NCBI GenBank assembly: GCA_903862655.1
Contig: CAIOZA010000122.1
Location: forward strand, 1-51,298
Source of the DNA: an uncultured Ignavibacteria bacterium
GTDB taxonomy: Bacteria; Bacteroidota; Ignavibacteria; Kapaibacteriales; UBA2268
Direction of reading: 5' to 3'
Length of the DNA stretch: 51,298 nucleotides
The notes under the pieces were generated by a model. The model did no database searches and had not been told where the DNA came from. It worked only from the letters and a program-made list of their open reading frames with translations. The first letter of the stretch is position 1; every line of letters starts with the position of its first letter. The translations under genes and the position numbers were made by a program. Shown one piece after another: positions 25,895-36,798 of this stretch.

Positions 25895-26055
25895 ATATAA
25901 TTCTCCTTCCAATTACTTTATTTAACAAACTTACAAAAAATTCTTGTGTTAATATTTACTTTTCGATTGGAATATAGAGTATTATATATTAAATTTGTCT
26001 GAAAAAATCTTTCCTTTTGTAATCTGACATGTTAAAATATGTGAAGGATAAAGAG

Positions 26056-26970
26056 ATGAAAAGAATTATTCTCATTCTAGTGTTTACCTTCGGTGTAATC
26101 TCACTTATATCACAGAATCCTACGGTTAAATTCTATCTGAAAGATGGTAGCACAAAGCAATACCTGATTGCTGACATTGATAGTATGAATATTATCAAAA
26201 GCGGAGATTCATCGAATATAACAATTGTTAATAAGAAGACCGGATCGAAGCAAATCATTAATATCAGTAAGGTAAAGAAAATATTTTTTGATGACAGCAC
26301 AAGAATTGCGTTTGAATTATCGGATTCAAGTTCAAAAGATACGACAATTTATGTCCGACTTCAAGATCTTGACAGCATTAATATTAATACTCCTGAGCAG
26401 TTTGCTTATGATACTGTCCGAATAGCCAATCAAATATGGATGAGAAAGAACCTTAATGTAAGCAGATATCGAAACGGAGATACTATTGCTCATGTGGAGG
26501 ACTCTGTGAAATGGGCTAGTTTGTCAACCGGTGCTTGGTGTTACTACAACAATGATCCATCAAACGAAGCAGTATATGGAAAACTGTATAATTGGTTTGC
26601 CGCTAGTGATCCAAGAGGATTAGCACCAGAAGGCTGGCATGTGCCGGATTATTCTGAATGGACGGCTATGGTATCTTATCTTGGTGATGACAGCCTGGCA
26701 GGAGGAAAACTTAAGGAAAATGGAACTGTTCATTGGTTGAGTCCTAATTCAGGAGCCACTAACGAGAGCGGGTTTACGGCTCTTCCTGGAGGCTTTAGGA
26801 ACTACGATGGAAGATTCAATCAGATAAGTCGGTTAGGTGCTTGGTGGACTAACGAGAAGTATGATGCTTTATTCGCATATTCCAGATATATGAGGTATGA
26901 TGATAATAAAGCACCTAGGTTGGTTGCCAGATTTATTAATGGTTTTTCAATAAGATGCATAAAGGACTGA
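26056..26970 (+). CDS. Secreted FISUMP-domain protein
   Basis: The 304-aa protein has a signal peptide (MKRIILILVFTFGVISLISQ). A short N-terminal module FYLKDGSTKQYLIADIDSM is shared with two paralogues near 35-36 kb. The C-terminal half is the Fibrobacter succinogenes major paralogous domain: IWMRKNLNVSRYRNGD, GAWCYYNNDPSNEAVYGKLY, GWHVPDYSEW, SGFTALPGGFR, WWTNEK and a final SIRCIKD. Its function is not established. I chose the ATG at 26056, preceded by AAGGATAAAG, over an in-frame ATG at 26029, because it starts the signal peptide directly. It converges on the SpoIIE phosphatase gene. Confidence 0.88.
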   Translation: MKRIILILVFTFGVISLISQNPTVKFYLKDGSTKQYLIADIDSMNIIKSGDSSNITIVNKKTGSKQIINISKVKKIFFDDSTRIAFELSDSSSKDTTIYVRLQDLDSININTPEQFAYDTVRIANQIWMRKNLNVSRYRNGDTIAHVEDSVKWASLSTGAWCYYNNDPSNEAVYGKLYNWFAASDPRGLAPEGWHVPDYSEWTAMVSYLGDDSLAGGKLKENGTVHWLSPNSGATNESGFTALPGGFRNYDGRFNQISRLGAWWTNEKYDALFAYSRYMRYDDNKAPRLVARFINGFSIRCIKD

Positions 26971-27027
26971 AATGAATTGTTTACTAAAAATTGAGGTATC
27001 GACTCGAATATTAATAATAAGCTTTTA

Positions 27028-29454
27028 TTAGTTAATTTTCAGCTTTAGTATGGACAGATCATCGATGAGGTCTTTGTGATTGTTCAAAGTTTTGATATAA
27101 GTATATAAGTCTTTCAGGCTCTTGTTTTTCTTTTCATACAGAACCAGCATTTCTCTGAAACTATAGTCATTCCAGTAATTACCTTCGGCCAGTTTAATTT
27201 CGTAAGACCCATCGGAATAAACAAATAGCGTTGTTGGCAAATCAATATTGATGGTGTCTGATTGGATTGTTGGATTCCTGACACCGCCCACGCATAGGTT
27301 TTGAGAATCAAGTAATCTGATTTCACTGCCGCAATGTCCATCCATAATAATAACAGGTGGATGTCCACAACCGGAATACGAAAGTTCATGCTTCTCGTTA
27401 TTGTAAACGCCATACCAAAGTGTAAAATACATATCACCATGATCTGACATCTGGAATCTTTTATTTAATGTCTTAACAACATCAGCCGGTTGAGTCATGT
27501 CGGTATTCGGCAGACCATGTGAACGAAGAGCATTAATGACAGAAACAGTATGCAAAGAAGCTTTTATCCCGTGACCAGAGACGTCGATAAGATAAATAGC
27601 AAAGTTGTTGTCATCTATCCAGTGATAACCGAACGAATCTCCACCCAACTGTTCGGAGGGAACATATATCCATTCTGTTATGAGCTTATCGGTAATCGGC
27701 TTTGGAATCAACGAGAGAACGTAGTCAGCAGCTCGCTTCAGATCATTATTGATAATATCTAAATATTGATCTTTTTCCTGATTTATATTTTGCAGCTCAT
27801 GATTTTTTCTGTTCAGCACTTGGTTGTTCTTCTTTTTAGTAAGGTTAAGCATATAGAAATATACGAAAGTTATGATTGCAAGAAAGGCTAAAACATAGTT
27901 GAGTGTTTTTTGATCCCTCGAAATTTTTTGTGACTGCTCGTTTACCCTTTTTAAATAAAGATTTTCTTTTAATGCGAAATCAATTTTGTTCTGTTGATGC
28001 ACTTTCTCAATTTGTTTGCTGATTGTATCTTTTATCATTTCCAGATTAATTTCCTGCTTTTTCAAAATAAATTCATACGCATTTTTATAAATTCCGAGAT
28101 TTTCATATGTTTTAGCAAGAAATCCATATAAATCATTAAGCATTTGTTTGTCACCCGATGCCTCTGCATAGGGGAGTGCAAGATTGAGATATTTCAAAGA
28201 ACCTTTGTTGTTGTTTTCAAGAGCATCAACTTGAGCCAAACTATAATAGCTGTTTGCTGTCTGTAGAGTATCTTTTATTTCAAGAGAAAGGTCTAAGGCT
28301 TTATTAAAATAATATTTTGCTTTGTTGGGAACATTCTTTTTAAAATAGATTTCACCGATCAGCGATAGATAAACTATATAGTTTATTTTTTGCTCAGAGG
28401 GTTTAATTATTTTTTCAAAATCCTTTACAAGAACCAGAGCAGAATCTGCATGACCTTCATCAAGTAGAATGGAGGCAAGATTGACCTTGGTCGTCGCTTC
28501 TAAATGAATCAATCCAATTTCTCGATATAATTTGATTGCATCATAGAAAAATTTCTTAGCTTCATAATTCTTGTCAATTTGAGCATATATGTTAGCAATA
28601 AAGCATAAAATGTTAGCTATTTTTCTCTGGTTACCCATCGATTTAGCAATTAACATGGAATTATCAAATGATACCAGCGCTTCATTTATCTTGGCTTCTG
28701 CATACTGCACACTGCCTAAAGTGAAATAATAATCAATCTGGAATGATTTGTTGGTCTTGAATGAACTTGAGCCTTTAATCTTGTTGAGATATTCTGTTGC
28801 TTTGGCTGTCATGCCAAGGGATTTATAAATATTAGACAGAGTGAGCATATAGTCAATATCTTCAGTTTTGCTAAATGTAGATTTTAAGAGTTTTTCAGCA
28901 AAATTGATATGTTCGTTAGCTTCCTTATAATTCTTAATAAACGCTAGAAGATAACTGATATTCAAATAGCAAATAACCTGGTTCTTAATGTCTTTTACAG
29001 ACTCGAAACATATGAGAGCGGATTCATAATTATTCCACGCTTCCTGATAATAACCGTTGAAATCGCTTAGCTGACCTAATAATATTTTACATAATCCTTC
29101 GAGATAGATATCCTTCCGGATTTTTACCATTTTGAGTGTCTTTTTTATGTAATGAAGAGTAGAATCATAATTTGAAAGGTTTTTGTAAGCTACGGCAATT
29201 GTGTAGAGAGCATAATTTGATTCCTTTTCCTTATTCTCAAATTGAGCTAATTGGAAGCATTCGGAGGCATAAGTTAGTGTTTTCTGGGGATCATTTTCGA
29301 GATAATAATTAGATAAACTATCAAGTTTTTTTAGTCTGTCCAAGGGGCTTGCCGATGACACCTCAGCTTCAATTCTGCTGACATCTATCCGCTGGCCAGC
29401 AACAGATAAGTGCATTAAAAATAAAAAGCAAAATATAATCGTGATTTTTTTCAT
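27028..29454 (-). CDS. TPR-repeat membrane protein with PP2C/SpoIIE phosphatase domain
   Basis: An 808-aa receptor-like phosphatase. A signal peptide (MKKITIIFCFLFLMHLSVAG) is followed by about 450 residues of tetratricopeptide repeats, expected in the periplasm. Then come a membrane helix (LNYVLAFLAIITFVYFYML, near 518-536), a short coiled coil and a C-terminal SpoIIE/PP2C domain. Metal-binding motifs are visible: LGGDSFGY, YLIDVSGHG, VYSDG and LIDDLSILKL. Such proteins dephosphorylate anti-sigma-antagonist proteins (RsbU, SpoIIE type) in partner-switching. No STAS protein, anti-sigma kinase or sigma factor is adjacent. It is alone on this strand and convergent with the FISUMP gene. Confidence 0.88.
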   Translation of the reverse strand: MKKITIIFCFLFLMHLSVAGQRIDVSRIEAEVSSASPLDRLKKLDSLSNYYLENDPQKTLTYASECFQLAQFENKEKESNYALYTIAVAYKNLSNYDSTLHYIKKTLKMVKIRKDIYLEGLCKILLGQLSDFNGYYQEAWNNYESALICFESVKDIKNQVICYLNISYLLAFIKNYKEANEHINFAEKLLKSTFSKTEDIDYMLTLSNIYKSLGMTAKATEYLNKIKGSSSFKTNKSFQIDYYFTLGSVQYAEAKINEALVSFDNSMLIAKSMGNQRKIANILCFIANIYAQIDKNYEAKKFFYDAIKLYREIGLIHLEATTKVNLASILLDEGHADSALVLVKDFEKIIKPSEQKINYIVYLSLIGEIYFKKNVPNKAKYYFNKALDLSLEIKDTLQTANSYYSLAQVDALENNNKGSLKYLNLALPYAEASGDKQMLNDLYGFLAKTYENLGIYKNAYEFILKKQEINLEMIKDTISKQIEKVHQQNKIDFALKENLYLKRVNEQSQKISRDQKTLNYVLAFLAIITFVYFYMLNLTKKKNNQVLNRKNHELQNINQEKDQYLDIINNDLKRAADYVLSLIPKPITDKLITEWIYVPSEQLGGDSFGYHWIDDNNFAIYLIDVSGHGIKASLHTVSVINALRSHGLPNTDMTQPADVVKTLNKRFQMSDHGDMYFTLWYGVYNNEKHELSYSGCGHPPVIIMDGHCGSEIRLLDSQNLCVGGVRNPTIQSDTINIDLPTTLFVYSDGSYEIKLAEGNYWNDYSFREMLVLYEKKNKSLKDLYTYIKTLNNHKDLIDDLSILKLKIN

Positions 29455-29570
29455 TTACATAAAAAGTATTTGCTATCTTCTGCAAATTTAATTAATTTTA
29501 CATTAAATAAAAGAAAAATCTAGTATATCCATATAATTTACCTTTCAACACTTTTTTATGAGGTACTATC

Positions 29571-29966
29571 GTGGCTTCTAAGAATACTATTTCTGCCAAA
29601 ACTTCGAAATCTGAAGTAAAACAAGTTATACTTGCAATTTCCACACAGGCTCAATGCGACAGAGTCAATCCTGTTCCCACCGGTGGTACAATTTCAATCA
29701 ATGGTAAGAAACCAATAATATTGCTGTTTTTTAACCAAAATCAAGTTCCTGTCCAGGCTAATGTAAAGATAGCAAATGCATCGACAGGAGTGCCAATAGA
29801 ACAATTCTTTTTAATTAATGCCTCCAGTTCATTAGCTCTCGATGTTAATATTGATTTGGGCCAGACTATGGGCACCAAGAATCTTATCTATTATAAAATC
29901 GAAATTAAAAACGTTAATAGCCCACAATTTGAGGTTGGTTATTCAGATTTTATCATTAATATTTAG
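29571..29966 (+). CDS. RVNPVP-paralogue 1, unknown family
   Basis: A 131-aa protein, first of three tandem paralogues. After a Ser/Lys-rich N-terminus without a signal peptide comes CDRVNPVPTGGTISINGKKP, then a run of alternating hydrophobic residues (IILLFFNQNQVPVQANVKI) and a C-terminal part ending DFIINI. The pattern looks like a small all-beta domain of about 100 residues. The start is GTG at 29571 with weak GAGG at 29560-29563; no ATG fits. It is followed after 9 bases by paralogue 2, so the three genes form a likely operon. I cannot assign a function. Confidence 0.65.
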   Translation: MASKNTISAKTSKSEVKQVILAISTQAQCDRVNPVPTGGTISINGKKPIILLFFNQNQVPVQANVKIANASTGVPIEQFFLINASSSLALDVNIDLGQTMGTKNLIYYKIEIKNVNSPQFEVGYSDFIINI

Positions 29967-29975
29967 GAGATAAAA

Positions 29976-30431
29976 ATGTATAAAAAAAATTCACGAGCAC
30001 TTATCATTTCGCTGATGATTCTGTCTCTGGCGCTTGGGGTATGTGTCATATTGCTGCTCATTAGACCAGCACCAGTAGCATTACCACTAATACCCGGAGC
30101 AATTGACCGGGTTCAGACTGTGCCACCATCAATACCAATGCCAATCAATGGAAAGAGGCCATTTGTACTAACATTAGTCAATCGCTGTACTACGGAAGTG
30201 GATGTGGATGTTACTATTACCGGAGTAACTGGTGCACCTATTGTGCAGCCTTATAAAATTCCAAAGGCTTTATCACCTACACAAGGATATTATCTCGGTA
30301 TTCTTATTGATAAAAATTTAGGTGGGTATTTTCCTGGAACAAATTTCAACTATAAGATTGATTTGTCATCTAGAAATAGTTCATCCAATGTTTATGCAAT
30401 TTATTCTGATAGTGCTGTCATTGTTCAATAG
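29976..30431 (+). CDS. RVNPVP-paralogue 2 with a membrane anchor, unknown family
   Basis: A 151-aa protein. The N-terminus, ALIISLMILSLALGVCVILLLI, is a membrane helix, so the remaining 115 residues are probably outside the cytoplasm. The shared segment is degenerate but clear: DRVQTVPPSIPMPINGKRPF, followed by LTLVNRCTTEVDVDVTI. Spacing to the first paralogue is 9 bases, with AGGAGATAAAA before the ATG. It is the only member with an anchor, so the trio may work at different places or as a complex. Function unknown. Confidence 0.65.
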   Translation: MYKKNSRALIISLMILSLALGVCVILLLIRPAPVALPLIPGAIDRVQTVPPSIPMPINGKRPFVLTLVNRCTTEVDVDVTITGVTGAPIVQPYKIPKALSPTQGYYLGILIDKNLGGYFPGTNFNYKIDLSSRNSSSNVYAIYSDSAVIVQ

Positions 30432-30470
30432 AGATTGAATTTTTTTAACTTATTCAATAAAGGATAATTT

Positions 30471-30800
30471 ATGAGCTTAACACTAACAATACCCGGCTTG
30501 CCTGATAGGATTCTTACTGGCAGAGTAAACCCAGTACCTCCGGGCGGAACTATCACAATCAACGGCAAAAAACCTGTCGCTATCAGTATGGAGAACAAAA
30601 CCGGCAACTCCATATTTTGTATTCTTAAGGTTAATCAGGAACCAATTATTGATGAAACTGTTAATCTTCCCGCGAATAATTCAATCAGTTTTTTTGTAGA
30701 CAGAACCACAATTGCGGCTGCATACGATATTCTGATTACAAATCAGAGCAAAACTGATAGTATGGGGACTACCATAATCGAAAACTGTATGAAAAAGTAG
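30471..30800 (+). CDS. RVNPVP-paralogue 3, unknown family
   Basis: At 109 aa this is the shortest member and nearly all conserved core: GRVNPVPPGGTITINGKKPV, then AISMENKTGNSIFCILKV and a weakly conserved C-terminal half ending IIENCMKK. No signal peptide or helix. AAAGGATAATTT precedes the ATG. The stop lies 7 bases from the stop of the terminase gene on the other strand, so the two converge almost end to end. Function unknown. Confidence 0.65.
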   Translation: MSLTLTIPGLPDRILTGRVNPVPPGGTITINGKKPVAISMENKTGNSIFCILKVNQEPIIDETVNLPANNSISFFVDRTTIAAAYDILITNQSKTDSMGTTIIENCMKK

Positions 30801-30807
30801 TTTAACT

Positions 30808-32325
30808 CTATTCAAACATAGAATCTCCGACTCTCTGCTTCTTGCGTCCACCAAGAACTGGCGGCTTTTTGTCGTCGATTGACATAAATCCGATATAGGC
30901 GAACGCATCCACCTGGTCGTCATGCCGTCCATCGGGGAAACGCATCAGTTCATCTTCGAAATCGCCGAGCCAGTGTGCTCCTGACGGGAAATACACTTTT
31001 CCCAAAGCCATTTTTGCCTTCATCACACCTGCACGCAGTACTTTGTTTCCCCTGGGAGTGAGAGCCTTAATCTGGGAACCTGCGATACTCATTTCGTTGA
31101 CTAAGATAGCCTGATAGCCAACCTGCTCAATGCCAACCAAAGTTAAGTTCCATTTAGCGACTTGAGTTGCAATCAGATTCTTGTGATGCTCCGGTGCTAG
31201 TCTTTGACGCAGAACATCAAGCACGAGAATCTCATTTTGCGGAGTGTGTGCATAGGTGAGAATGACAGTGTAATCGCTGGTGGTTGAGATACTCGACGCA
31301 AGATCGACGGTAGCGAATCTCAGGCATGAGTCCTTGCGTCTGGATTCGCTCGCACCCAAATGATTGACAAGATGATAACACTCAGCATCCTCAGTGAAAT
31401 AACTAAAATGCTCACGCTTGAAAACCGGATTTCTGCCGGGGATCGGACTCTGCTGATAGAGTGAAGCAAACCAGTAAGCTCCTGCCTGAAGCTTGATCTT
31501 AGCCAGAGCTGATTCGTCATATCTCTCTGCCCAAAGAGGTTCACCGATGCATCGACCGAGTTCGTCATCTTCCTCTGCAAGAGCAGGGAGAGTAATCTTC
31601 ACCCATGTTTCTTTGTCGGTAGGGAGAAGTGAATCAGAACCGATAGCCTCATCCAGTCTGATGATATTCGATGTTTTGGCGATGCGTCCGCATAAGTCGT
31701 CATCGTGCCAGCGGGTCATCAGTAGTACAACTTTACCGCCGGGTTCAAGCCTTGTGTAAGCAGTTGCGACAAACCATTCCCAGATATTATCGAGAATTTT
31801 CTCGCTGCTGGCTTCCTCGTTGTTCTTAACGGGATCGTCGATAATCAGAAGATCGGCACCTCGACCAGTCAGAGAGCATCCTGCACCAGTGCTTACCATG
31901 CTCCCTGATCTGTTTGCGATGCTGAACAGCTTCATTGCATGGCTGTCCTTGGCTAATCTCAGATCGGATTTGCCTTCGATCGAACGTGTGATCAGAATTT
32001 CCTTGACAAGTCTGCCCCACATGGAGGCAAAGTCAGCGGAATAGCTTGTAAGGATGATTCTCTTATTGGGGAATCTGTTGATATACCATGCCGGAAAGTA
32101 TTTGGAGATCATCTCGGATTTACCGTGACGAGGCGGCATATTGACCATAAGTCTGGAGAATTTGCCTGCAACGAGGAAGTGAAGGGCTTTATCGAGATAA
32201 CGCAGATGCGGCGGATACTTCCACTCACCCGATGAGTTGATGTATGCAAACCAGCCCGGAGAGATTGTTTCGAGGATTTCCTGACTAAGAATTTCATCGC
32301 GTGTATTTATTTCTTTTTCTTCCAT
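30808..32325 (-). CDS. terL: Orphan phage terminase large subunit
   Basis: A 505-aa TerL. The ATPase has Walker A MPPRHGKS (residues 63-70) and Walker B LLIIDDPVK (159-167), with MTRWHDDDL as the likely coupling motif. The C-terminal RNase H-like nuclease starts FATVDLASS and ends at GRHDDQVDAFAYIGF, the profile of the psiM2 ORF9-type large terminase C-terminal domain. Length and motifs are intact. Known TerL proteins cut and pump phage DNA into capsids. Yet no portal, capsid, protease, tail, integrase or small terminase gene lies within 10 kb on either side. It may be a prophage remnant, part of a gene-transfer-type system encoded elsewhere, or a reused enzyme. Confidence 0.9.
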   Translation of the reverse strand: MEEKEINTRDEILSQEILETISPGWFAYINSSGEWKYPPHLRYLDKALHFLVAGKFSRLMVNMPPRHGKSEMISKYFPAWYINRFPNKRIILTSYSADFASMWGRLVKEILITRSIEGKSDLRLAKDSHAMKLFSIANRSGSMVSTGAGCSLTGRGADLLIIDDPVKNNEEASSEKILDNIWEWFVATAYTRLEPGGKVVLLMTRWHDDDLCGRIAKTSNIIRLDEAIGSDSLLPTDKETWVKITLPALAEEDDELGRCIGEPLWAERYDESALAKIKLQAGAYWFASLYQQSPIPGRNPVFKREHFSYFTEDAECYHLVNHLGASESRRKDSCLRFATVDLASSISTTSDYTVILTYAHTPQNEILVLDVLRQRLAPEHHKNLIATQVAKWNLTLVGIEQVGYQAILVNEMSIAGSQIKALTPRGNKVLRAGVMKAKMALGKVYFPSGAHWLGDFEDELMRFPDGRHDDQVDAFAYIGFMSIDDKKPPVLGGRKKQRVGDSMFE

Positions 32326-32849
32326 TTTCTGCTTTCAATAGAACAAACCACTGGCAATCTATTGAATCAGAAGTAAACGCCAAGAAAACGGTTTTTATAA
32401 GGAATATATAGGAAATAGAAAGGGAATAATTTAGAAATACAGAATGTCGAATATCGAATGATGAAGGAAGGAAAAATTAAATTTTGTTCCGGAAACACCG
32501 GAGGTGTGAAATCTTAATAGAAAAAATGGAGGAGAGAGCATCATAGCCCCGTAGGGGCGACATCTCTTTCGCCCCTACGGGGCTTGAGTGGTGGCCGGGT
32601 ACGATTTTCTATTAAGATGCCATCCCTACGGGATTTGTTCTACATTTCTGAAATTTTCACACCCCTTGATTCCCTCTCAAGAAGGGAAAATACAGAATAC
32701 ATTTATTTCATCCCCACGGGATTATTGGAAAAGATTTTTCGATGAATATCTATTATAATTAATCCTCTACAAGAAAATAGATATATTACTCTAAATGTTA
32801 CTCTGTGATTTTTTCCTCATGACAAAATCATAGAATTACCGGATATTTA
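32326..32849. other. Gene-free gap with palindromic element
   Basis: No gene. It holds a 108-base element with perfect terminal inverted repeats (32511-32618). There is also an ACGGTTTTTATAAGGAATATATAG segment at 32389-32412 resembling 8577-8598, and short GGGATT/CCCTACGGG modules (about 32623-32635). Confidence 0.65.
32511..32618. repeat. MITE-like element with perfect 14-bp terminal inverted repeats
   Basis: ATCTTAATAGAAAA at 32511-32524 and TTTTCTATTAAGAT at 32605-32618 are exact inverted repeats. Inside, GCCCCGTAGGGGCGACAT (about 32549-32566) and TCGCCCCTACGGGGCTT (about 32569-32585) form palindromes that also pair with each other. It is a clean copy of the family at 4002-4121. Confidence 0.8.
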
Positions 32850-33491
32850 CTATTTCTTGAGCTTGGTGCCAAACACTTCTTCAAATTTCTTCAGTTTGGG
32901 AGAGATCACCATTTGGCAATAGGGTTGTGATTTATTGTCGTTGTAATAGTTCTGATGATAATCCTCGGCTTTATAGAATTTTGTGAACGGGCTAATCTCG
33001 GTAACAACAGGATTATCAAAGGCTTTTGCTTCATTCAATTTTGTCTTATACTTATCAGCCAATTCCTTTTGTGACTGATTATGATAGAAAATAACAGACC
33101 GATACTGAGTTCCTGCGTCAGCACCCTGCCGGTTTAATGTAGTGGGATCGTGCACTTTCCAAAATACTTCCAGAATCTCTTCGAATGAGATTTTAGAGGC
33201 GTCGAAAGCGATATTGCATACTTCTGCATGCCCGGTTCTGCCGCTGCACACCTGTTCATAAGTTGGATTGTCGATTGCTCTGCCCGAATAACCGGACTCG
33301 ACGAAAACCACACCTTCAAGTTGCTGGAAAACCGCTTCCACGCACCAGAAGCATCCAGCACCGATTGTAGCAGTGTCAGTGGCAGTATATTTATTGTTCA
33401 TTTTGCTTTTCTCCATTACCTGCTTTGATTTATCGTTTGCCGAGCATGAAACAGCTGCCAGCAACAATATAAGCGATATAAATATGTTCAT
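32850..33491 (-). CDS. msrA: Peptide methionine sulfoxide reductase A, probable lipoprotein
   Basis: The 213-aa MsrA reduces methionine-S-sulfoxide in proteins using the catalytic Cys47 of GCFWCVE. Also visible are YSGRAIDNPTYEQVCSGRTGHAE, the DPTTLNRQGADAGTQYRS signature, and YHQNYY near the C-terminus. Unlike cytosolic MsrA it begins MNIFISLILLLAAVSC, a signal peptide with lipobox and lipid-anchored Cys16, so it should repair proteins in the envelope. There is no fused MsrB domain and no msrB gene nearby. The recycling reductant for a periplasmic MsrA is unknown from the window. Confidence 0.93.
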   Translation of the reverse strand: MNIFISLILLLAAVSCSANDKSKQVMEKSKMNNKYTATDTATIGAGCFWCVEAVFQQLEGVVFVESGYSGRAIDNPTYEQVCSGRTGHAEVCNIAFDASKISFEEILEVFWKVHDPTTLNRQGADAGTQYRSVIFYHNQSQKELADKYKTKLNEAKAFDNPVVTEISPFTKFYKAEDYHQNYYNDNKSQPYCQMVISPKLKKFEEVFGTKLKK

Positions 33492-34195: not shown

Positions 34196-35107
34196 TTAAT
34201 CTTTTATGCAACGGACAGAAAAGCCATATATTTCCAAAAATCCAATCATTTCTATATTACTTTTATCGTACTTTAAATTTCTGGTCCACCTCCATTCAGC
34301 TGTCCACATAGTACACCAGATTCTAAAATTACTGAACGGGGCTTTAGCAGGAAATGGGGGAGGTTGTGCAAGTCTACCACCACCGGGCAATGCACTGAAT
34401 CCGGTTTCGTTAGAAGCTCCTGTATTGGGAGTTATCCAGTGTTCGGTGCCCGCTTCTTTTAATGCAGCACCTAACATACCCTGTTTCGTAACAAATGCCT
34501 CTAAAATAGACCAATCTTGCAATGCAGGGATTCTCCATCCTTTTGGTGCCAATACTCTTGAATCATTTACAGCATACCAATTATACAATTTACCATAAAT
34601 TGCTCCATTTGCAGGATCATTAGCTTGATAGCACCAAGCACCAGAACTAAGCATGGCCCAATAATCACCTCTAACTTCTGGGATCGAATCTCCGTTTCTA
34701 TAATGATCAACATTCAGGTTTCTATACATCCAGTGCTGCTCGCCAATTGTCACTGCGACATAAGTTGTGTAATATATTGAAATGCTGTCAATTTTATGAA
34801 TTGCAAAGTCCCATTTGAATCCGTCATGCCAGAGATTTACGTATTGATTGCTGTATTGACCGATAGAAAAAGTAATTGTGTCGATTAGCTGTACAGGATA
34901 GTAAAAAGTTTTAGAATCATTTGTAAAGACCTGAAGCTGGAGAGTCTCAGGAGCATTTGGGAATTGTATATTCGCTATTTCGCTCAAATTATACTGCTTT
35001 GTGCTACCATCCTGAAGATAGAATCTGACCAGAGGTTCTGCTGAATAGAGGGAAGCGGAAAAAAGTGACAAAATTGTTACAACGATGATGAGAAGTGCTT
35101 TTTTCAT
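34196..35107 (-). CDS. Secreted FISUMP-domain protein, second paralogue
   Basis: 303 aa with a signal peptide (MKKALLIIVVTILSLFSASLYS). It has the shared N-terminal module EPLVRFYLQDGSTKQYNLSEI, a second beta segment, and the FISUMP domain from HWMYRNLNVDHYRNGD through GAWCYQANDPANGAIYGKLY, GWRIPALQDW, GFSALPGGG to FSVRCIKD. The closest relative in the window is the gene at 35815; the two end with the same 20 or so DNA bases. A VapBC-like pair lies between them, so the pair may be a duplication later split. Confidence 0.87.
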   Translation of the reverse strand: MKKALLIIVVTILSLFSASLYSAEPLVRFYLQDGSTKQYNLSEIANIQFPNAPETLQLQVFTNDSKTFYYPVQLIDTITFSIGQYSNQYVNLWHDGFKWDFAIHKIDSISIYYTTYVAVTIGEQHWMYRNLNVDHYRNGDSIPEVRGDYWAMLSSGAWCYQANDPANGAIYGKLYNWYAVNDSRVLAPKGWRIPALQDWSILEAFVTKQGMLGAALKEAGTEHWITPNTGASNETGFSALPGGGRLAQPPPFPAKAPFSNFRIWCTMWTAEWRWTRNLKYDKSNIEMIGFLEIYGFSVRCIKD

Positions 35108-35129: not shown

Positions 35130-35534
35130 CTAAATGGTTTTCATAAGTGTGAACCCGGCTTGCTCAAAGTGATGGTCAATAGTTAAAGCCTTCTGAATGT
35201 TATTCAGATCCATAATTAGAAATGACAAACAATCAACAAGACCCCATTTTTTGTCAGCATAAGTAGAATATTTCTCGAAAGCTTGATTAAATAAATCTTT
35301 CGAATTCCAGATTATTTGAATATCAGGAGAATTTAGTAATAAGTTTATTGTTCTGATCGCTTCTGTTTTATAGTCCTTTGCTAAGTAATTTCCAATTTCA
35401 TAAAGTACTAAATCTGATGTGATATATTGACTCCCGGCAAGACTTTCAGAAAGTTCTAAAGCCCAGCTATGATATTCATCTTTTTGATTGATTAATGCAA
35501 TAATAAATGAAGTATCAATAAAATAAGTATTCAT
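35130..35534 (-). CDS. vapC: PIN-domain VapC-type toxin
   Basis: The 134-aa PIN domain has the acidic metal-site residues in order: Asp7 in FIDTSFIIAL, the Glu of LVLYEIGNYL, the Asp of WGLVDCLSF and the Asp of ALTIDHHFEQAGF. VapC proteins are Mg2+-dependent RNases, many cutting tRNA or rRNA. The ATG at 35532-35534 overlaps the antitoxin stop codon by one base, the classic coupled layout. No defect is visible, so the toxin is likely active unless bound by its partner. Confidence 0.88.
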   Translation of the reverse strand: MNTYFIDTSFIIALINQKDEYHSWALELSESLAGSQYITSDLVLYEIGNYLAKDYKTEAIRTINLLLNSPDIQIIWNSKDLFNQAFEKYSTYADKKWGLVDCLSFLIMDLNNIQKALTIDHHFEQAGFTLMKTI

Positions 35535-35731
35535 TAAGCATTCCCGGAATAAAGAAAATTATCAATATTACCAGAGAAATCCTTTGGAGCATCAATCTTG
35601 ATGTTCTTTAAGTTGTCCATTAGACTACCTTTGTCGGAATTCTCCAAATTATGCATATATTTCATCAATTCTTCGAGTTCATTCTTAGATAATGAGCTTA
35701 TTTGAATCTTCAATGCCTCAACAGTTTCCAT
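35534..35731 (-). CDS. Small antitoxin paired with the PIN toxin
   Basis: A 65-aa protein starting METVEALKIQISSLSKNELEELMKYMHNLE, an alpha-helical N-terminus, then an acidic, probably disordered C-terminus that could thread into the toxin. No classical AbrB or MetJ/RHH domain is evident, so I infer its role from position (directly upstream, one-base overlap) and size. ATG at 35731. It likely represses its own operon, as VapB proteins do. Confidence 0.7.
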   Translation of the reverse strand: METVEALKIQISSLSKNELEELMKYMHNLENSDKGSLMDNLKNIKIDAPKDFSGNIDNFLYSGNA

Positions 35732-35814: not shown

Positions 35815-36762
35815 TTAATCTTTTATGCAACGGACAGAAAACCCATAATCCTTAGCGCTATTGCTCCTGTATATACTGGCGTAATCATAGTACAAGTACC
35901 TACTCCATGCGTAAGCTGTACCAAACTCCTCAGTAGACCACCAATTACTGTTGTAACCAATATCGTCGAAATCTCCATCGTTGCTACGGTAGCCACCCGG
36001 GAGAGTGGAAAAACCACTTTCATTAGTTGCACCAGTGTTTGGACTCAACCATAAGCCATCACCTGCTTGTTTTGTGCCTGAAGTTTTAAGTTTGCCTCCT
36101 TGATCAGTTCCCCGAAAGCCTCTCATATCAACATATTCTCTTGACATACCTAAAAATATCTCCAGCTCTTTCCAATCATACTCACTAGCTACATTCCATC
36201 CCTCTGGGGCTATGCCTCTTGAATCATTTACTGCATACCAGTTATATAACTTGCCATAAATCAGACCATTTACAGGGTCGTTGTAGTAATAACACCATGC
36301 ACCAGTTTTTAAATATGACCAAGCTGTTGCATCCTGCTCTTCTGATATTAAATCACCATTACGATAATGATCAACATTCAGGTTTTTGAGCATCCAGACC
36401 TGCTTCCCGATAGTAAGGGGTTGATATTGATCGATATAGAAAATGACGCTGTCGATCGAACTTAATATGTAGCTTTTGGGATATGAAAAGATATAGACAT
36501 TGAGTATGTCACGTTTTACGCTGTCTTTTTCAAATTTGATACTAGCGATAATTTCAGTTGGATAATAAGCAATACGTGAGTCACTATAATGGATACGCAT
36601 AACATAGTTATTCTTTTTTTCTATGATATTTAAGCTGTCAATATCACCGAGATTATACTGCTTTGAACTTCCATCCTGAAGATAGAATTTGACGAGTGGT
36701 TCTGCTGAATAGAGGGATGCAGAAAAAATTATGATGACAATGATGGGAAGTGCTTTTTTCAT
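35815..36762 (-). CDS. Secreted FISUMP-domain protein, third paralogue
   Basis: 315 aa. I start at the ATG at 36762 (MKKALPIIVIIIFSASLYS, signal peptide); the frame extends four codons further to a TTG without added sense. The N-terminal module is EPLVKFYLQDGSSKQYNLGDI, nearly identical to the one at 34196. The FISUMP domain runs from VWMLKNLNVDHYRNGD through GAWCYYYNDPVNGLIYGKLY, GWNVASEYDW, GFSTLPGGYR, WWSTEE to FSVRCIKD. Alone on this strand between the VapBC pair and a HicB-like gene. Function unknown. Confidence 0.87.
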   Translation of the reverse strand: MKKALPIIVIIIFSASLYSAEPLVKFYLQDGSSKQYNLGDIDSLNIIEKKNNYVMRIHYSDSRIAYYPTEIIASIKFEKDSVKRDILNVYIFSYPKSYILSSIDSVIFYIDQYQPLTIGKQVWMLKNLNVDHYRNGDLISEEQDATAWSYLKTGAWCYYYNDPVNGLIYGKLYNWYAVNDSRGIAPEGWNVASEYDWKELEIFLGMSREYVDMRGFRGTDQGGKLKTSGTKQAGDGLWLSPNTGATNESGFSTLPGGYRSNDGDFDDIGYNSNWWSTEEFGTAYAWSRYLYYDYASIYRSNSAKDYGFSVRCIKD

Positions 36763-36798
36763 GGTTTTTGCCAATTTGAAGAGAGTTTATTTAATTTA

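Follow-up and report, generated by a model that had tools for sequence, protein, structure and literature searches.

Three adjacent small genes in an uncultured Ignavibacteria bacterium are best explained as a family of small, probably all-beta proteins, duplicated locally and confined to one lineage. They may be expressed from one operon, and the family would comprise an anchored product of gene 2, soluble partners, and a shared core used for assembly; we give this reading a probability of about one half. The genes lie in a contig stretch of 51,298 nucleotides, which is called the window below. The trio is real, without known relatives and small in scope, and it is a taxon-restricted orphan paralogue set. 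Its features and those of its immediate surroundings are as follows.

27028 to 29454, minus strand: gene for a protein of 808 aa with TPR and a SpoIIE-type phosphatase domain, divergent from the trio and outside it.
29455 to 29570, no strand: divergent intergenic region of 116 bases from the trio to the TPR-SpoIIE gene.
29571 to 29966, plus strand: gene 1, 131 aa, GTG start, GAGGT upstream; core at residues 30-55, no membrane segment.
29658 to 29735, plus strand: core motif of gene 1, DRVNPVPTGGTISINGKKPIILLFFN.
29976 to 30431, plus strand: gene 2, 151 aa, AGGAG upstream; hydrophobic N-terminus at about residues 11-29, then a Pro-rich linker, then the domain from about residue 44.
30105 to 30182, plus strand: core motif of gene 2, DRVQTVPPSIPMPINGKRPFVLTLVN, with the NP and GGTI portions degraded.
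30471 to 30800, plus strand: gene 3, 109 aa, AAGGA upstream; core at residues 17-42.
30519 to 30596, plus strand: core motif of gene 3, GRVNPVPPGGTITINGKKPVAISMEN.
30808 to 32325, minus strand: gene for a phage-type terminase large subunit, 505 aa, G+C 48%, convergent with the trio and outside it.

All three genes of the trio run in the same direction and are separated by 9 bases (genes 1 and 2) and 39 bases (genes 2 and 3); the ORF coordinates thus agree with an earlier note on this DNA, which had described three adjacent genes of these lengths, direction and gaps. The GAGGT, AGGAG and AAGGA sequences are plausible ribosome-binding sites of genes 1, 2 and 3, respectively. The G+C content of the trio (35-39%) is close to the 37.6% of the window. 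Peak hydropathy in a 19-residue window is 3.0 at residue 11 of gene 2 and 1.1 in both gene 1 and gene 3, which bears out the claim that only the middle gene has a membrane anchor; judged by hydropathy, neither gene 1 nor gene 3 encodes a hydrophobic segment for export. A single sigma-70-like match was found in the intergenic region (29497-29526, plus strand), and across 29300-31000 such matches are no commoner than in shuffled sequence. No terminator-like site was found within 29300-31000, for which shuffled sequence averages only 0.9. In addition, Rfam gave no match at gathering scores in 26900-32900, and a search for DNA repeats returned the core triplet plus short pairs. Possibly, the TPR-SpoIIE gene and the trio share regulation over the 116-base gap.

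The pattern common to the three proteins is [DG]RV..VP......INGK.P. In genes 1 and 3 the core reads [DG]RVNPVPxGGTIxINGKKP, and gene 2 carries a weaker version of it, DRVQTVPPSIPMPINGKRP; downstream of the core, all three proteins have a hydrophobic strand with an Asn at its end. Local alignment scores exceed the best of 2,000 shuffles in every pair (94 versus 62 for genes 1 and 2, 97 versus 70 for genes 1 and 3, and 69 versus 61 for genes 2 and 3), and BLASTP, run as single comparisons, gave E values of 4e-9 for genes 1 and 2 and 4e-10 for genes 1 and 3. The earlier claim of one core in all three genes therefore stands by the shuffled controls, but needs qualifying for gene 2, where the NP and GGTI portions have decayed. 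Across the 26 codons of the core, genes 1 and 3 agree in 17 residues and just four of those use the same codon, with a pS of 0.89 and a pN of 0.26; over 41 codons of genes 1 and 2, pS is 0.81 and pN is 0.44. Because synonymous differences are near saturation and replacement differences are fewer in both comparisons, the trio look like real, translated genes under selection at the protein level. That they are chance open frames would fit the lack of a database relative for any of them; however, a core conserved at the protein level, near-saturated synonymous change, the putative ribosome-binding sites and scores above all shuffles leave this explanation practically no credence.

The part that follows the core behaves differently in the three pairs. 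For genes 1 and 2 its global alignment score of 60.5 was matched by none of 5,000 shuffles and its local score of 45 by 24 of 5,000, whereas for genes 1 and 3 the global score was matched by 2,536 and the local score by 2,137 of 5,000 shuffles, and for genes 2 and 3 by 1,432 and 1,526 of 5,000, respectively. From these scores, genes 1 and 2 are judged to be homologous across the whole domain, and gene 3 is detectably so in the core alone. The view of the trio as diversified tandem copies of one domain accordingly held for genes 1 and 2, but for gene 3 it reaches just the core (26 residues). The lack of detectable homology of gene 3 beyond the core therefore points either to fast divergence or to sharing of the core only. 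The latter would mean that a short element alone is shared or copied, for example through recombination or as a joint sorting or docking tag, and that gene 3 is otherwise unrelated, as suggested by the post-core scores of gene 3 against genes 1 and 2, which are no better than those of shuffles, and by the BLASTP alignment of genes 1 and 3, which spans 26 residues only. However, genes 2 and 3 also have an IPG..DR stretch in common ahead of the core, fast divergence around a constrained core would look alike, and the tandem order favours duplication; we regard sharing of the core only as rather doubtful, though it deserves to be kept in view.

Pfam, PHROGs, NCBIfam and PADLOC gave no significant match for any trio protein, in agreement with the earlier statement that no named family has this core. 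A profile of the three proteins had been proposed as a check; among PDB sequences, neither gene 3 nor this three-protein profile had a significant match. In tblastn searches of 50,697 phage records, genes 1 and 2 had no match at E 1, and gene 3 had matches at E 0.9 or worse only, which is chance level; among plasmids, gene 1 had no match at E 1 and gene 3 had four, at E 0.6-0.8. Pattern scans with short exact peptides, five on viral contigs and two on genome contigs, confirmed no relative, and distant relatives can escape such scans because they rely on short exact peptides. At E 0.001 the trio profile matched the source genome only, both among 123 genomes of the order and among 391 genomes of the class, and in the phylum it matched four of 395 genomes including the source, the other three matches containing stops; the genome sets of the family, order, class and phylum and of the 60-relative searches overlap. 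Three matches in one distant genus (E 5e-4 to 9e-4) were rejected, with one or two internal stops each; in one of them, L067, a 117-aa ORF is overlapped at its end only, and the match extends beyond its stop. Within the source genome, three trio copies and no further ones were found at E 0.01, and another contig has a match to gene 3 at E 0.13. When the proteins were searched singly in 60 relatives at E 0.01, gene 3 matched the source genome only and gene 1 matched the source and two others (L006 and L007, E 0.006), of which L007 has two internal stops. Meanwhile, the profile at E 0.01 matched five of the 54 genomes of the bacterial family including the source, that is, four of the 53 others (L011, L012, L013 and L014, E 0.001-0.007). 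The best of these weak matches, in L011, falls on a type IX sorting tail and lacks INGKKP, and the L012 match lies within a protein of 782 aa that carries Ig-like (HYDIN/ASH) repeats as well as a sorting tail, likewise without INGKKP; both were rejected.

Sorting tails were tested against the trio on account of the L011 match and of a slight resemblance between the core and the start of such tails. The type IX C-terminal sorting tail (PF18962) has, by eye, a PNPT.G..TI-like start ahead of beta strands, but an unfiltered model of 19 tails, taken from the window and from relatives' loci, does not recognise the trio (2.4 bits for gene 1, -0.3 for gene 3 and -1.3 for gene 2), and this lead was rejected. 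In the comparison of profiles, the score of 11.8 stands against column shuffles with a mean of 9.6 and a maximum of 16.2 and a reversed alignment at 10.0. In addition, no PF18962 row was obtained for the trio proteins.

Structure prediction was a further check that had been proposed. AlphaFold2 with a three-row alignment modelled gene 1 with five strands and no helix, but at a mean pLDDT of 42.8 (pTM 0.37), and gene 3 reached a mean pLDDT of 33.3. Models of such low confidence are too poor to fix a fold for gene 1 or gene 3 and permit no more than the statement of a generic beta-rich domain, the beta call being drawn from the low-confidence strands of the gene 1 model (pLDDT 42.8) and the residue pattern. 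Foldseek gave no match to the gene 1 model at E 0.001 or below. Its top match to this model (pLDDT 43) was 1nc7 (TM1070) at E 0.03 and probability 0.98, followed by chains of 2ii8 and 2ii9, structures of the Anabaena sensory rhodopsin transducer (ASRT), at ranks 5, 10 and 12 and by 2ii7 from rank 25. VIA-align gave Z scores of 5.4 to 7.5 among the 50 matches listed, which we take to be mostly beta-rich proteins, and according to its own note a Z below 8 may reflect merely a common arrangement; 1nc7 scored 6.3, and 2ii9, 2iia and 2ii7 scored 6.2. The VIA-align result bears only on fold families that its list contains. Two of these, 1nc7 and 2ii7, are sequence relatives via a common family member.

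These matches raise the possibility that the trio belongs to the ASRT fold family (PF07100), small beta-sandwich proteins with soluble signalling or ligand functions, which it resembles in size and, at low model confidence, perhaps also in the beta-sandwich layout of the strands. However, unrelated proteins equal or exceed the ASRT Z scores (7zvo, Z 7.5), and a sequence-profile relation is lacking. The hhalign comparison of the genes 1 and 2 alignment with six ASRT proteins gave a probability of 0.1 and a score of 10.4, within the range of the shuffled controls (100 column shuffles, mean 11.2, maximum 17.5; reversed alignment, 20.2), so that the lead was rejected for want of sequence support. 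Moreover, hmmscan of the trio proteins returned no PF07100 row, and PF07100 is absent from the source genome and present in one of 296 genomes of the phylum. To our knowledge, no membrane-anchored tandem paralogues occur in the ASRT/TM1070 family. We consider membership of this fold family very unlikely. The small carbohydrate-binding modules 7zvo and 5fu4 share a generic beta-sandwich arrangement with the low-confidence gene 1 model (Z 7.5 and 6.5), whereas the trio adjoins phosphatase-domain and terminase genes, not genes for carbohydrate enzymes. Like the trio, taxon-restricted orphan families with tandem paralogues have few copies in one lineage, arise by local duplication and diverge rapidly around a short fixed core; compared with them, the trio stands out only by its sharp core and by its one anchored and two soluble copies.

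The window is ordinary chromosome, with polysaccharide, penicillin-binding, peptide transport, NadA and other household genes. Several of the 20 other window proteins that were scanned match PHROGs families of unknown function, and none falls into a family with a head, packaging or tail annotation. Three proteins with a Fib_succ_major (FISUMP) domain are encoded within 11 kb flanking the trio, at 26029-26970 (plus strand), 34196-35107 (minus strand) and 35815-36774 (minus strand). In addition, a PIN-domain gene at 35130-35731 (minus strand) follows a 65-codon ORF with a one-base overlap, an arrangement typical of toxin-antitoxin pairs.

The terminase gene, which ends 7 bases from gene 3, has a distribution of its own. 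At E 1e-10 it was found in 51 of the 54 genomes of the bacterial family, a count that takes in partial, split and second-type copies in some genomes, and in four genomes elsewhere in the order. Matches at E 1e-5 exist in 1,948 phage records, and a scan of viral contigs found no close relatives. We selected 20 terminase neighbourhoods by hand from the 50 matching family genomes besides the source. When their proteins were clustered, the terminase was the sole gene family common to all; the next clusters had 11 and six members at varying positions, and a longer shared gene order was seen around the terminase in close relatives only, for example L056 and L062. The motifs that we take to be catalytic, namely Walker A, Walker B (DD) and the nuclease motifs (DLA, DD..D), are kept in 21 of 21 sequences, L061 and L065 carrying variants of Walker A. 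A second, more phage-like type of terminase (L087-L094) occurs in some family genomes and groups apart from the main copies. A FastTree phylogeny was built from 32 main copies, of which 30 are distinct, five phage proteins and 10 second-type copies, including two that come from a different family of the order. In this tree the main copies stand apart from all others with a support of 0.993, the type labels having been assigned beforehand; the inner order of the main copies, L040 included, has weak support. Among the 54 family genomes an HK97-type portal was found in three and an HK97-type capsid in four, and the source genome has neither.

Given its matches in nearly all family genomes, the kept motifs, the separation of the main copies in the tree and the few genomes with HK97-type portal or capsid genes, the terminase appears to be a lone packaging ATPase/nuclease retained by vertical descent. 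It has the look of a domesticated gene or of one component of a dispersed gene transfer agent, and it seems more interesting than the trio. A published study discusses the RcGTA-like TerL of alphaproteobacteria and its descent from headful-packaging phages (PMC7947584). A search of PubMed Central for literature on lone terminases returned a single paper, which concerns the P22 terminase. Among the genomes examined, the trio is a neighbour of the terminase in the source genome only, and the two differ in G+C.

Two further explanations of the trio bear on this neighbourhood. The small proteins might be a remnant of, or an accessory to, a phage or gene-transfer-agent unit with the terminase, for example as virion or decoration proteins, to which the 7-base spacing and the wide occurrence of terminase relatives in phages lend some colour. 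However, no trio-clustering gene stands beside the terminase in any of the 20 relatives' neighbourhoods, no significant trio relative was found in phages or viral contigs, the G+C of the trio follows the window rather than the terminase, and the PHROGs scan of the 20 other window proteins gave no head, packaging or tail match. A joint unit is weakened because the terminase-bearing relatives examined in the family lack the trio, and we see only a slim prospect for it. Little credence can be given, too, to the idea that the trio are diversified proteins of a secreted or contact-dependent effector type or of an immunity type, with a constant N-terminal part and variable ends: a constant core with a divergent remainder would suit such proteins, but the trio has no family match, the sole toxin-type Pfam domain among the other window proteins is that of the PIN gene, 4.3 kb off, and genes 1 and 3 have no hydrophobic segment for export.

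We return to a locally duplicated family of small, probably beta-rich proteins. To a core shared beyond chance, full-domain paralogy of genes 1 and 2, protein-level constraint and one hydrophobic segment, this reading adds a beta fold, an operon and an assembly, which we infer. Local duplication would have given rise to the trio, and the three genes would be read as one operon. A single N-terminal membrane anchor may hold the domain of gene 2 outside the cytoplasm, an orientation suggested by the basic start of the protein, MYKKNSR, and genes 1 and 3 would be its soluble partners. The RVNPVPxGGTIxINGKKP element could be a shared structural or docking element, formed by a turn and the first edge strand, through which the paralogues would assemble with each other or with one common partner, the rest of each protein having diverged for separate roles. 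That the three products form one mixed complex is a tentative suggestion, somewhat on the doubtful side. A simple three-part complex is less likely because no route is visible by which the products of genes 1 and 3 could reach the compartment in which the gene 2 domain would lie, and the simple surface-subunit model is weakened chiefly because both lack a hydrophobic segment for export. Recruitment of genes 1 and 3 to the membrane would be easier to picture if the gene 2 domain faced the cytoplasm instead. It is unlikely that the trio represents a new small-domain family, with no counterpart in the named libraries searched, whose anchored and two soluble paralogues are co-produced and assemble via the fixed RVNPVPxGGTIxINGKKP edge element, so that, for instance, the anchored copy would tether the soluble ones to the membrane.

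As it stands, the trio is one orphan family in one genome, and its value is modest. An undescribed small domain, together with a simple example of a set of anchored and soluble paralogues, would be gained if the assembly reading holds. The conserved lone terminase may matter more, because a phage packaging motor retained by a bacterial family with no evident phage would open the question of domesticated packaging enzymes or dispersed gene transfer agents to testing.
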